Below, piece after piece: positions 4,193 through 51,293 of a stretch of DNA of 64,000 nt; the first letter of the stretch is position 1, and every line of letters begins with the position of its first letter. The DNA lies in NCBI GenBank assembly GCA_019113295.1, contig DXHR01000025.1:62001-126000 (forward strand), read 5' to 3'. The stretch comes from Candidatus Salinicoccus stercoripullorum. Its GTDB lineage: Bacteria; Bacillota; Bacilli; Staphylococcales; Salinicoccaceae. The position numbers and the translations under genes were made by a program. A model generated the notes under the pieces. That model saw nothing but the letters and a program-made list of their open reading frames with translations. It made no database searches and was not told the origin of the DNA.

Positions 4193-5947
4193 TTCCAGTA
4201 TTCTTTCCGCTATCGGAGCTGGTATTCCAATTTCTGTAAATGAGCTGACATCCTTCTCTTTCATCCGTTTTATGGAACCAAAGTGGCTCAGAAGCTTCTG
4301 CTTCCGCTTGGGACCGACCCCCTCGATGCCATCGAGCACAGAATTTACCGATGTTTTATTTCTAGTATTTCTGTGGAAGCTGATGGCAAACCTGTGGACC
4401 TCGTCCTGTATCCGCTGGAGCAGATAGAATTCCTGGGAATTCTTATTCATCGGCACAATTTCCGCAGCATCACCGTAAAGCAGCTCGGCTGTCTTGTGCT
4501 TCTCGTTTTTGGCAAGCCCCGCAATCGGGATGTCGAGTGACAGTTCGTCCATGAGGACTGATTTTACAGTATTCATATGGCCGATTCCGCCATCGACTAT
4601 GATCAGATCAGGCAGCGGCAGGTGCTCTTTCAGCACACGCGTATATCTTCTTCTGACCGCCTCAGCCATGGAAGCGTAGTCATCCGGACCTTCGACCGTC
4701 CTGATCTTATATTTCCGGTAGTCCTTCTTGCTCGGTTTTCCATCGATGAATGACACCATGACACTTACCGGATCCACACCCTGGATATTGGAGTTGTCAA
4801 AAGCTTCGATGCGGATCGGCGTTTCGATGTTGAGTATCACGCCGAGACTTTCTATCGCGCCGATAGTCCGCGCTTCATCCTTCTCTATGATTTCAAATTT
4901 GTTTTTCAGTGCAATTTCGGCATTCTTATTGGCAAGTTCCACCATTTCCTTCTTCTGGCCCCGCTTTGGCTGCACTACTTCAACCGGCAGATATTCATCT
5001 ATGATTTCCCGGTCCAGACCGCCTGTTATATGCACCTCTTTGGGAAGCAGGTTGGATTTCAGGTCATAGAACTGTGCAATGTAGCGGTAGAATTCCTCCT
5101 GGACCTCATCCTGGATTGGAAACATTTCCGCTTTCTTCTCAATCAGATTGCCGTTCCTGACAAGAAGTACGGAAATTGCCATCCATCCCTTGGATACACT
5201 GAATCCGAAACAGTCGCGCGCCGTCATATCCTTGCTCATCATCTTCTGCTTATTCATTGTGGCGTCGATATGCCCGATCAGATCCCGGTACTCCTTCGCC
5301 TTTTCAAATTCGAGATCGTCCGACGCCTTTTGCATCTTCTCTTTGAGTTCTTCCACAATCTGTTTTGTATCCCCGTTCAAAAAACGTGTGATGCCGTCGA
5401 TCATCTCTTTGTACTGCGCCTGGGTCACATCATATACACAAGGTCCAAGACACTGTCCGATGTGATAATAAAGGCAAAGCTTATCAGGCATCGTATTGCA
5501 TTTTCTGAGTGGATATATCCTGTCCAGCAGCTTTTTCGTCTCATGGGCGCTGTATGCATTCGGATACGGACCGAAATACGTTCCGGTCTTTGGCTTTACC
5601 GTCCGGGTGACAATGAGCCGCGGATGCTCTTCCTTCGTTATCTTTATGAAAGGATAGCTTTTATCATCCTTCAGGAGTATGTTGTATCTCGGATAATGCT
5701 TCTTGATCAGGTTGAGTTCAAGCAGGAGCGACTCCACTTCGGAGTTGGTCACAATGAAATCGAAATCAATGATCTCCGCCACCAGCCTCATCGTCTTTTC
5801 ATCATGGGCACCGGAAAAATAGGATTTCACACGGTTGCGGAGATTTTTCGCCTTCCCCACATATATCACTATGCCGTGCCTGTCTTTCATGAGGTAACAG
5901 CCGGGCTCTGTCGGCAGCACTGACAATTTCAGTTTAAGATCCTCCAT
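4178..5947 (-). CDS. uvrC: Excinuclease ABC subunit C
   Basis: The nuclease subunit of UvrABC, which incises on both sides of bulky DNA lesions. The protein has 589 residues. An N-terminal GIY-YIG domain ([25 protein letters not shown], about residues 16-40) makes the 3' cut. A UVR motif lies near residues 205-235, then the RNase H-like endonuclease domain ([21 protein letters not shown]) for the 5' cut, and a C-terminal helix-hairpin-helix pair ([19 protein letters not shown]). The ATG at 5947 is chosen because GAGGG is 6 nt upstream; the ATG at 5953 directly abuts it. It lies downstream of trxA, as in B. subtilis. Confidence 0.97.
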
Positions 5948-41093: not shown

Positions 41094-41124
41094 AAAAAGA
41101 ACAGCCGCCATTAAGACTGTTCTT
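41094..41124 (-). terminator. Rho-independent terminator over the accA stop codon
   Basis: AAGAACAG and CTGTTCTT pair on the minus strand with the stop codon in the loop, followed by a T run. It separates accA from pfkA. Confidence 0.8.
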
Positions 41125-42064
41125 CATAAACACCAATATCCATATATTTCTGATAACGGTCTTCCATAAGGGCATCTCTGTCCAGCTGCGACAGTTCGGC
41201 CAGATGTTTCCAGAGTACTCCGTCGAGCATCTCGTATACAGCATCCTTATCATTGTGTGCACCGCCCTGGGGTTCTGCGATCACTTCATCTGCAATGCCA
41301 AGTTCCTTCAGGTCGTCCGCAGTAATTTTGAGTGATTCTGCCGATATCTCCTTCAAAGAAGCATCTTTGAAAAGGATACTTGCCGCCCCTTCAGGGGAAA
41401 TCACTGAATAAGTAGCATTTTCAAGCATCAGGAGCCGGTTGCAGACACCGAGCGCCAAAGCACCACCTGAACCGCCCTCACCTATCACCACGCTGATGAC
41501 GGGCACTTTCAGCCCGGCCATTTCAACGAGATTGCGTGCAATGGATTCACTCTGGCCCCGTTCTTCCGCCGCTCTGCCGGGATATGCACCTTTTGTATCG
41601 ATGAAACAGATGATCGGGCGGTTGAATTTATCCGCCTGCTTCATGAGCCTCAGGGCTTTTCTGTAGCCGTCCGGATGGGCCATGCCGAAATTACGCTTTA
41701 TGTTATCTTTCGTATCACGACCGCGCTGATGGCCGATGATTGTGACCGGCGTACCTTTATAGGTGGCGATGCCCCCGACAATCGCCGCATCATCGCTGTA
41801 CACCCGGTCTCCGAAAAATTCGATGAAGTCATCGAACATTGCATCGATGTATTCAAGTGTCGTCGGACGGTTTATATATCTCGCAATCTCCACACGCTGC
41901 CACGGTGTAAGATTATTGTATATTTCATTCTTCTTGTCCGTTACTTTCTTTTCAAGAAAACTGATTTCCTTCGTCAGATCCAGCTTGTTTTTCGCCGCAT
42001 ACTTTTCCAGTTCCCTTATTTTCTCTTCAAGTTCCTGTATGGGTTTCTCAAATTCGAACGCCAT
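41111..42064 (-). CDS. accA: Acetyl-CoA carboxylase carboxyltransferase subunit alpha
   Basis: Half of the carboxyltransferase that makes malonyl-CoA for fatty acid synthesis. The protein has 317 residues with an N-terminal helical region ([20 protein letters not shown]) and a crotonase-type core ([69 protein letters not shown]). It starts 2 bp after accD, a coupled pair, and ends the malic enzyme-regulator-accDA operon. Confidence 0.97.
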
Positions 42065-42066
42065 GA

Positions 42067-42918
42067 CTACACCCCGCTATGCATTCTGAGTATTTTTCCG
42101 AGATAGTCTTTCATATCAGTACGGTCGACAACCCTGTCAAGCTGTCCGTGTTTAAGCAGGAATTCCGCCGTCTGGAAATCGTCGGGCAGTTTCTCCTTAA
42201 TGGTCTCTTCGATGACACGCCTGCCCGCAAAGCCGATGAGAGCGCCGGTTTCAGCCAGATTGATATCCCCGACTGAAGCAAAGCTTGCCGACACACCTCC
42301 TGTTGTGGGGTTCGTCATATAGGCAATGTATAAAAGCCCTGCCTGACTGTGCTTTTCAATCGCCACACTTACCTTGGCCATCTGCATCAGGGAGACGATT
42401 CCTTCCTGCATGCGGGCACCGCCGCTCGCTGTGAACACGATGACCGGCAGTCCTCTGTCAGTGGCGTAATTGAATGATCTGGCAAGTTTTTCGCCGACAG
42501 CAGAACCCATGCTCCCCATTCTGAAGCGTGGATCCATGATGGCGACAACCGACCGCGTACCATCTATTTCACCTTCTGCACAGACTACCGCTTCATTCAG
42601 GCCGGTCTTCTGCCGGTCTTTTTCAAGCTTCGATCCATAATTCGGGAATTCAAGCGGGTTGGCAGATGTCACTTCTTCAAAAAGCACTGTAACCGTACCT
42701 TCATCCATCAGCGCCTCCATGCGTTCGACGCTGGTGATCGGCAGATGGTGGTTGCAGTTTGTGCAGACATTCAGCCTTTTATAAAGTTCTTTCGAATAAA
42801 GGATCTTTTTACAGTTCGGGCATTTGGTCATGATTGAAGCACTATTTTCGAATGTACCATCATTCGAGTTGGTTTCATTTACTTTTTTATTCAGCTTGGA
42901 AAACAAGTCTTTTAGCAT
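42067..42918 (-). CDS. accD: Acetyl-CoA carboxylase carboxyltransferase subunit beta
   Basis: The partner of AccA. The protein has 283 residues. An N-terminal zinc ribbon ([18 protein letters not shown], about residues 34-60) is followed by the crotonase-like domain ([51 protein letters not shown]). It lies between the short GntR-type regulator gene and accA. Confidence 0.97.
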
Positions 42919-43376: not shown

Positions 43377-44600
43377 TTACTGCGTCAGTTTTAACGCATT
43401 CTGGTAGACCTCTTCCGGATCCACTTTGATACGGCTGACTCCGCTTTCCATAGCCGCTTTTGCCACTGCTTTTGCAACGTTGGGAGCGACTTCCTTGTTG
43501 AATGCATCCGGGATGACATAATCGGCCCTCAGTTCGTCTTCAGAAATCAGATCGGCAATTGCAACGACAGCCGCCTTTTTCATCTCGTCATTGATATGCG
43601 TCGCACGCACATCCAGTGCACCCCTGAATATGCCGGGGAAGGCAAGTACGTTGTTGATCTGGTTCGGGAAATCACTGCGGCCCGTGCCTATGATACTTGC
43701 GCCTGCAGCTTTTGCTGTATCAGGCATGATTTCAGGATTCGGATTCGCCATGGCGAAGATGATTGGATCCTCTGCCATTGTCTTCACCATCTCCTCGGTC
43801 AATGCACCTTCGATGGAAACTCCAATGAATACATCGGCATCCTGGATTACGTCTTCAAGGCCACCTTCAACCTGATCCTGATTTGTAAACTGTGCGATTT
43901 TTTCCTTGACCGGATTCATGCCGTTCGGACGGCCTTCATAGATTGCACCTCTTGAATCACACATGATCATCTCTTTTACGCCGAAGCTGTACAGAAGTTT
44001 GACAATTGCCACTCCGGCAGCCCCCGCACCGTTCAGGACGACCTTGATCTTATTCAGAGAACGATCAGTCAGCTTCAACGCATTCATGAGACCACTCAAA
44101 GTCACGATTGCAGTGCCGTGCTGATCGTCATGGAACACCGGGATATCCGTCTCGCGGCTCAGTCTCGCCTCAATTTCAAAACATCTCGGTGCAGAAATAT
44201 CCTCCAGATTGATTCCTCCAAAAATGGGAGTCATCAGTTTGACCGTGTTGACGATCTCATCCACATCGTTCGTCTCGAGTGCTATCGGGAAAGAATCGAC
44301 GCCGGCAAAATTTTTGAAAAGCGCACTTTTGCCTTCCATTACAGGCAGGCTCGCCTTCGCACCGATATTGCCGAGACCGAGTACTGCGGAGCCGTCGGTC
44401 ACCACACCAACCGTGTTGCTTTTAATCGTATAGTCGAAGACTGTGCGGTCATCCTCATAAATCTCTTTGCACGGCTCGGCAACACCCGGGGAGTAGGCCA
44501 GGCTGAGTGCCTCCCTGTCTTTGATCTCCACCTTGGAATTTACTGATAGTTTTCCCTGCTTCTGCTTGTGCATGTGTAGTGCATCATCTCTTAGCGACAA
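43377..44600 (-). CDS. NAD(P)-dependent malic enzyme (YtsJ type)
   Basis: Oxidative decarboxylation of malate to pyruvate with CO2 and NAD(P)H; the YtsJ type commonly supplies NADPH. The protein has 407 residues. Motifs are SLAYSPGVAEPC, GLGNIGAKASLPVMEGKSALFK, GINLEDISAPRCFEIE, PVFHDDQHGTAIV and the nucleotide-binding VLNGAGAAGVAIVKLL. The start is a TTG 6 nt after AGGGAG. First gene of an operon with the GntR regulator and accD-accA; in B. subtilis ytsJ also lies beside accDA and dnaE. Cofactor preference is not certain from sequence. Confidence 0.93.
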   Translation of the reverse strand: MSLRDDALHMHKQKQGKLSVNSKVEIKDREALSLAYSPGVAEPCKEIYEDDRTVFDYTIKSNTVGVVTDGSAVLGLGNIGAKASLPVMEGKSALFKNFAGVDSFPIALETNDVDEIVNTVKLMTPIFGGINLEDISAPRCFEIEARLSRETDIPVFHDDQHGTAIVTLSGLMNALKLTDRSLNKIKVVLNGAGAAGVAIVKLLYSFGVKEMIMCDSRGAIYEGRPNGMNPVKEKIAQFTNQDQVEGGLEDVIQDADVFIGVSIEGALTEEMVKTMAEDPIIFAMANPNPEIMPDTAKAAGASIIGTGRSDFPNQINNVLAFPGIFRGALDVRATHINDEMKKAAVVAIADLISEDELRADYVIPDAFNKEVAPNVAKAVAKAAMESGVSRIKVDPEEVYQNALKLTQ

Positions 44601-44619: not shown

Positions 44620-44634
44620 AGTGGTCATACCACT
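44620..44634. promoter_or_regulatory. FadR-type operator on the malic enzyme-accDA transcription start
   Basis: AGTGGTCATACCACT: two 6-bp arms AGTGGT/ACCACT around 3 bp. It fits the FadR-subfamily pattern TNGTNNNACNA with the TGGT/ACCA core used by PdhR and LldR. It lies from about -2 to +13 relative to the predicted start. Confidence 0.75.
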
Positions 44635-44638
44635 TTTA

Positions 44639-44667
44639 ATATTAACATTATCGATATTGTGTGACAA
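44639..44667 (-). promoter_or_regulatory. Promoter of the malic enzyme-regulator-accD-accA operon
   Basis: TTGTCA (44662-44667) and TAATAT (44639-44644) on the minus strand with an exact 17-bp spacer. Predicted start near 44632, inside the operator at 44620-44634. Confidence 0.78.
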
Positions 44668-50606: not shown

Positions 50607-51293
50607 CTAAAATCTGACTTCGTCACCGGCTGTGAGTACCTGGCAGCCGGTGGACAGTTTGTTTTTAAATTCATCCGGGTCCTGCTTGATTGGCGGGAAT
50701 GTGTTGTAATGGATCGGAACGGCTGTCCCTGGTTTCACCAGATTATCGGTCGCATACACTGCATCCTCGATTCCCATCGTGAAATTGTCGCCGATCGGAA
50801 CAAAGAATACGTCAAACGGCCCATTCAGTTCTGATATGAGCTTCATATCACCGAAGATCCCCGTATCCCCGGCATGATAGATTTTCTTATCTCCCGCCTC
50901 AAGGATGATGCCGGTCGGCATTCCTGTATAGACCAGGCCGGAACCATCATCGAAAGTATAGCTCGAACTGTGGAAAGCGTGTACGAATTTGACGGAGCCG
51001 AATTCGAATTCATTTCGGCCGCCGATATTCATCGCCGCAACTTCGATATCCTTACTGCCGATATAGTCTGCAAGCTCCACCGGTGCAATGACTGTTGCAT
51101 TATTGCGTTTTGCGATATCCACCGTATCCCCGACATGATCGTTATGCCCGTGGGTGAGGACGATATAATCGGTCTCGACTTCATCTGCGATTAAATCGGT
51201 GAGTTCATTTCCGTTTATGAATGGATCGACGAGCACTTTTGAACCATTGTTTTCCAAAGCGATGATCGAATGTCCATGGTAGCTTAGTTTCAT
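50607..51293 (-). CDS. ytkL: Metallo-beta-lactamase-fold hydrolase (UPF0173, YtkL-like)
   Basis: The protein has 228 residues and begins MKLSYHGHSIIALENNG like the UPF0173 family. The metal-binding motif is VLTHGHNDHVGD (HxHxDH) near residues 47-58, with further His and Asp in YHAGDTGIFGD and IHYNTFPP. A cytoplasmic hydrolase with no known substrate. It lies upstream of ytoI with a terminator between, as in staphylococci. Confidence 0.93.
   Translation of the reverse strand: MKLSYHGHSIIALENNGSKVLVDPFINGNELTDLIADEVETDYIVLTHGHNDHVGDTVDIAKRNNATVIAPVELADYIGSKDIEVAAMNIGGRNEFEFGSVKFVHAFHSSSYTFDDGSGLVYTGMPTGIILEAGDKKIYHAGDTGIFGDMKLISELNGPFDVFFVPIGDNFTMGIEDAVYATDNLVKPGTAVPIHYNTFPPIKQDPDEFKNKLSTGCQVLTAGDEVRF

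Follow-up and report, generated by a model that had tools for sequence, protein, structure and literature searches.

A short FadR-type GntR protein as the probable autoregulatory repressor of both acetyl-CoA carboxylase operons in Salinicoccus and its relatives

Which protein acts at the palindrome lying over the predicted start of an operon for malic enzyme, a short GntR-family protein and the two carboxyltransferase subunits of acetyl-CoA carboxylase (ACC), and which genes does it control? Formation of malonyl-CoA by ACC commits the cell to fatty acid synthesis and is costly. FapR does not target accDA or accBC in B. subtilis, where expression of the acc operons is described as constitutive and under no known control (PMC5437119), and regulators specific for ACC gene transcription were said in 2024 to remain elusive (PMC11602165). 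The locus lies in a 64,000-nucleotide stretch of the genome of Candidatus Salinicoccus stercoripullorum (hereafter the window), and a preliminary description of it had proposed that the GntR-family protein represses its own operon and sets pyruvate/NADPH and malonyl-CoA supply together.

The letters of the minus strand placed the promoter, with its 17-bp spacing and the palindrome over the predicted start, exactly where that description had it (Table 1). Between the dnaE stop (44672) and the malic enzyme start codon (TTG, 44600) lie 71 bp, within which TAAA stands between the -10 element and AGTGGTATGACCACT (44634-44620), followed by the ribosome-binding site AAAGGGAG. The proposed four-gene operon was borne out as well, with Pfam matches for all four products, and ORF translations read beyond the accA hairpin revealed pfkA-pyk. 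Within the window, promoters scoring 9/12 in a sigma-70-like scheme are common, and the two occurrences of TGGTNNNACCA against 0.66 expected in 64 kb do not make the palindrome significant; the second occurrence (50730-50740) lies inside a coding sequence. Weak on the window alone, the palindrome is nevertheless far beyond chance because of its rank in the genome and its behavior across genomes.

Table 1. Coordinates of the promoter, operator and gene features; positions refer to the window unless a contig is named.
Feature	Position	Strand	Remarks
-35 hexamer TTGTCA	44662..44667	-	TTGT(C/A)A-type hexamer in most family members
-10 hexamer TAATAT	44639..44644	-	17-bp spacer; TAATAT/GATAATAT-type -10 directly 5' of operator in the family
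Operator 1, AGTGGT-CAT-ACCACT, perfect 6+3+6 palindrome	44620..44634	.	At predicted operon transcription start; best site in genome
Malic enzyme, operon gene 1, optional regulon member	43377..44600	-	PF00390, PF03949; absent from genera g5 and g6
141-aa GntR-family regulator, FadR-type wHTH, effector domain cut to three helices	42938..43363	-	PF00392
accD, carboxyltransferase beta subunit	42067..42918	-	PF01039, PF17848
accA, carboxyltransferase alpha subunit	41111..42064	-	PF03255
Terminator-like hairpin 3' of accA, likely operon end	41096..41125	-	11-pair stem, T-rich tail; scan-level evidence only
accB operator	contig C5:104717-104731		Within -35/-10 spacer of accB-accC promoter

Searching the whole 2.29-Mb genome with the 15-mer returned 34 strand-specific matches with three or fewer mismatches, of which the best was the window site (0 mismatches) and the second a site in the accB promoter (1 mismatch); among the best-ranked 29 loci of these 34 matches, only these two lay in intergenic DNA just 5' of a gene start. 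The third-best match (two mismatches; contig C26, position 40628) falls inside a dicarboxylate-transporter-like gene. The exact pattern TGGTCATACCA occurs at only two places, the window operon and directly 5' of accB-accC, adjoining efp, and only two of the 12 places with exact TGGTNNNACCA have a CAT/ATG centre, both of them ACC gene promoters. The accB promoter reads TTGAAT-TGGTATGACCACTTGCG-TAAAAT, with the operator filling the 17-bp spacer. The regulon proposed in the preliminary description stood for the regulator's own operon with accDA and was incomplete in that accBC, on another contig outside the window, also belongs to it.

Comparison across genomes revealed that both sites are kept. 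The family comprises 33 genomes in six genera (named relatives: Salinicoccus, Jeotgalicoccus, Lacicoccus, Phocicoccus and Nosocomiicoccus), 31 of which hold a regulator orthologue; the operator lies 5' of malic enzyme, or directly 5' of gntR where malic enzyme is missing, in 30/30 family loci read, and the accB operator was found in 30/30 as well. Beyond the family, accB promoters were read in eight more genomes of the order that have the regulator, and all eight carry the site; both sites (malic enzyme/gntR and accB) are kept in Macrococcus and Mammaliicoccus. The accB promoters of the 30 family loci and of these eight genomes always take the form TTG(A/T)AT-TGGTNNNACCA, followed seventeen bases further along by a TAAAAT-type -10, with the site within the spacer. 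Every one of 80 loci from a named genome collection has gntR, accD and accA with an operator 5' of the first operon gene, and dnaE upstream in nearly all. Coupling to accBC is not universal, because the site is absent from the accB promoters of 14 Bacillaceae genomes; accBC was either gained by the regulon in the Staphylococcales lineage or lost in Bacillaceae. B. subtilis itself is not known to carry the regulator gene. Some Bacillaceae loci (L149, L156, L178, L184 and others, at about 5676-5683) carry a second operator between gntR and accD, which suggests that accDA has a regulated promoter of its own in Neobacillus, Robertmurraya and Cytobacillus types.

The operator centre varies, being CTG/CAG outside the family (TGGTCTGACCA) and mostly ATG or ACG inside it. 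Within what appears to be one genus, the Mammaliicoccus-like g12 (L215 and L216 versus L128-L130), the accB site is centred on ATG and the malic enzyme site on CTG/CAG, a comparison from which the centre seems to be tolerated and not specifying. In the recognition helix (residues 42-45 of the protein), the Salinicoccus family has S-R-Q-S where most Bacillaceae have G-R-S-S, and this change parallels that of the centre from CTG to ATG, possibly as protein-DNA covariation.

Joint control of pyruvate/NADPH and malonyl-CoA supply did not hold up as the core of the regulon, since malic enzyme is missing from several genera. Genera g5 and g6 gave no malic enzyme match at all and still keep operator-gntR-accDA and the accB operator, 12 of the 80 named-collection loci are without malic enzyme in the operon, and loci of Nosocomiicoccus, Phocicoccus, Macrococcus and Domibacillus lack it at this place but retain operator, gntR and accDA as a unit. 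The constant partner is therefore ACC, and malic enzyme is an optional rider.

Further intergenic sites were seen in particular lineages. Phocicoccus pinnipedialis and P. schoeneichii carry GTGGTCATACCAC a few tens of bases 5' of the lpdV start (L277 1496-1508 and L278 1521-1533), apparently the first gene of the bkd operon, and bkd, which serves branched-chain primer supply, is likely an extra target in these two. Genome G033 of family f2 has a third regulon site, AGTGGTCTGACCACT (L272 1615-1629), just 5' of a buk-like gene (acetokinase family) that sits inside a bkd operon beside a leucine-dehydrogenase-like gene. A perfect AGTGGTCATACCACT lies about 35 bp 5' of a nitronate monooxygenase/FabK-like gene in Salinicoccus halodurans (L280 1431-1445), and no such site was seen among the best matches in the window's own genome. 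Family-wide extra matches within the coding sequence of lpdV and of bkdA2 apparently fall on a Gly-Met-Thr-Thr stretch and were set down as coding coincidence. The extra intergenic sites point to fatty-acid supply as the putative theme of the regulon.

Turning to the regulator, its N-terminus is a GntR winged helix-turn-helix (wHTH) domain (PF00392, E=4.2e-16, above the gathering score) of FadR-like type, with LldR as the best HMM; the solved structures nearest to it include the DNA-binding domain of B. subtilis LutR (8pqm). The TGGT-NNN-ACCA at both promoters fits the short-centre TKGT/ACMA consensus of FadR-subfamily operators (PMC4494728). No Pfam match to the effector (FCD) domain was found in the window protein or the other Staphylococcales orthologues scanned, and one Bacillaceae orthologue reached E=2e-4, below cut-off; because this domain was tested for and not found, plain FadR-subfamily membership is not assigned. 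The structure model of the window protein (mean pLDDT 85.8) has three C-terminal helices (76-85, 89-110 and 123-140). Most Bacillaceae orthologues are about 200 residues long, with a predicted seven-helix C-terminal domain like that of FadR proteins and a poor FCD match, and for a same-operon Bacillaceae orthologue with wHTH and seven helices the full-length PDB matches are FadR-subfamily proteins. Their alignment reveals internal and terminal loss in the short form, with one helix kept beside the invariant Asn122, and lengths are intermediate in Domibacillus (166 aa) and Bacillus fonticola (154 aa); judged from the Bacillaceae orthologues, loss inside an FCD-like domain seems to have produced the short form. 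Length would also fit the YtrA type, but the Listeria short GntR structures 4ham and 3neu rank below the FadR-group matches and the operator is FadR-type, while the HutC subfamily was set aside with no UTRA match in Pfam and a protein, at 141 aa, too short for it. We read the regulator as a putative FadR-type repressor that is dedicated to ACC and whose effector domain has eroded. Malate, pyruvate, acetyl-CoA and malonyl-CoA had been put forward as ligands, and with FCD absent the anatomy does not suggest direct sensing; sensing of malate, pyruvate or an acyl-CoA would lack a known pocket because the effector domain is down to three predicted helices.

From the sites, promoter positions, conservation, co-occurrence and co-loss and effector-domain erosion, all read from sequence, we infer binding, repression, dimerisation and a coupling role: the 141-aa protein would bind both sites as a dimeric autorepressor acting on both ACC operons, a reading to which we give a probability of about 0.82. 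It is most likely an autoregulatory repressor coupling AccDA and AccBC output. A dimer would bind (G/T)TGGTNNNACCA(C/A)-type palindromes over the start of malic enzyme-gntR-accD-accA and in the accB-accC spacer, and would block RNA polymerase at both promoters, occlusion being the natural reading of such placement. Made from the accDA transcript, the regulator would subject its own operon to negative feedback and pass the accDA transcript level on to accBC, so that the two half-enzymes would be made in step and malic enzyme (pyruvate/NADPH supply) would ride along as an optional member. Such matching would be possible for a regulator that shares its transcript with accDA and controls accBC. 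Raising ACC activity in Corynebacterium glutamicum needed both FasR sites mutated, which argues that both halves are needed (PMC6460773). As to repression of its own operon, the operator placement proposed earlier stood and is conserved, and repression itself is what this placement suggests.

What the protein responds to admits two versions. It may repress both ACC operons and yet be a metabolite sensor in the manner of FapR and FadR, released from DNA when malonyl-CoA, an acyl-CoA or some other fatty-acid signal is bound by a partner protein or by the three C-terminal helices that remain, a possibility to which we give slightly less than even odds. Its closest relatives of known function (LldR, PdhR and NanR) are metabolite-sensing members of the FadR subfamily, the added lineage-specific targets are fatty-acid supply genes, and the conserved C-terminal part (N122 and the surrounding helix) must have some role; this role could however be dimerisation alone, and the Staphylococcales proteins scanned lack the Pfam FCD domain, with four of seven predicted helices missing. 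The other version, more doubtful and offered tentatively, is that a sensor-less FadR-type regulator reports accDA output in trans to accBC and so keeps the halves matched without any effector.

The sign of the control is read from operator position only, and an activator could in principle also work from a site in a 17-bp spacer. In E. coli, FadR is an activator of fabA and fabB besides being a repressor, so an activator of ACC transcription acting from the same conserved operator is conceivable; activator sites, however, usually lie at or upstream of -35, and here both sites overlap core promoter elements at normal 17-bp spacing, as is usual for repressor sites, which makes activation improbable.

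Co-occurrence across the order bears on whether the adjoining gntR gene encodes the protein that would bind. The regulator is present in 56 of 157 genomes of the order, and the exact accB pattern TTGAATTGGTNNNACCA was found in 52 of these 56; in a fifty-third (G050) it has one change, TTGTATTGGTCTGACCA. An 81% complete assembly, G010, was set aside, its malic enzyme promoter carrying the operator, as was family f3, for which the one genome tested (G037) had no accB match. The regulator-free set holds 85 genomes, namely G001 and 84 of genus g14, probably Staphylococcus, and the accB pattern is known at accB in none of them (0/85). Nine stray matches occur in this set: G115 and G150 hold the two with operator-like centres, which were read and proved to be coding, and the remaining seven have other centres. 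Fisher's test gives p of about 3e-34 (52/56 versus 0/85), or about 3e-24 with all nine stray matches counted, uncorrected for relatedness, and these tiny values overstate the independent evidence, as the genomes are related and independent losses number about two (one genome of genus g2, and genus g14). The clearest case of co-loss is genome G001, which has neither regulator nor malic enzyme: its accD directly follows dnaE, and the operator is found at neither accB nor accDA.

These patterns uphold the earlier claim that a FadR-type operator sits on the operon of its own likely repressor, given its conserved position and its co-occurrence and co-loss with gntR. Were the palindrome instead the operator of another GntR protein or a global regulator, with the adjoining gntR a bystander, one could point to six more GntR-domain matches in the genome and to how alike FadR-type operators of different proteins look; the site nevertheless tracks gntR, is absent from accB where gntR is missing, was lost together with it in G001, and lies directly 5' of gntR where malic enzyme is gone, all of which leaves this reading highly improbable. 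That the palindrome acts as a leader RNA hairpin (an attenuator or stability element) and not as a DNA operator is extremely improbable, for although operator 1 coincides with the predicted start or comes just after it, could be transcribed, and was flagged by the scan (+ strand) as a weak terminator-like stem, the accB palindrome is upstream of the -10 and not transcribed from that promoter, and an Rfam search matched the palindrome to no family.

Among known systems, the autorepressor proposed here is closest in function to FasR (TetR family) and AccR (LysR family), and closest in kind to FadR-subfamily proteins. FasR of C. glutamicum also represses accBC and the carboxyltransferase gene accD1, but has another kind of operator and represses fas-IA and fas-IB too (PMC6460773); AccR of Shewanella oneidensis is likewise a transcription factor dedicated to an ACC gene, but activates, its target being the multidomain accS (PMC11602165). 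The FadR subfamily (LldR/CGL2915, LutR, PdhR, NanR and E. coli FadR) shares the wHTH, the TGGT-NNN-ACCA operator and a gene in its own operon, but has a full effector domain and lactate, pyruvate or fatty-acid degradation targets, whereas here there are three helices and ACC targets. FapR, the malonyl-CoA-responsive repressor of Bacillus and Staphylococcus, is alike in pathway, phylum and repression of lipid synthesis genes and differs in family and operator, and YtrA-type short GntR proteins are alike in length and in having few helices after the wHTH, but sequence and operator here go with the FadR group. A literature search, with most subscription journals and regulon databases such as RegPrecise outside its scope, returned no description of this regulator or regulon, and the main text of the GntR motif paper makes no mention of acc or malic enzyme.

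The locus offers a specific, conserved candidate ACC regulator in many Bacillales, including Salinicoccus, Jeotgalicoccus, Macrococcus, Mammaliicoccus and many Bacillaceae. It also presents a natural experiment, with a regulon of accDA in Bacillaceae, accBC added in Staphylococcales, and regulator and operators jointly missing in genus g14, and its shrinking effector domain makes it possible to test whether sensing is needed for a one-component regulator to work. The protein very probably represses both ACC operons, its own gene included, and the first step of fat synthesis would then be under dedicated control in a bacterial group for which none has been described.
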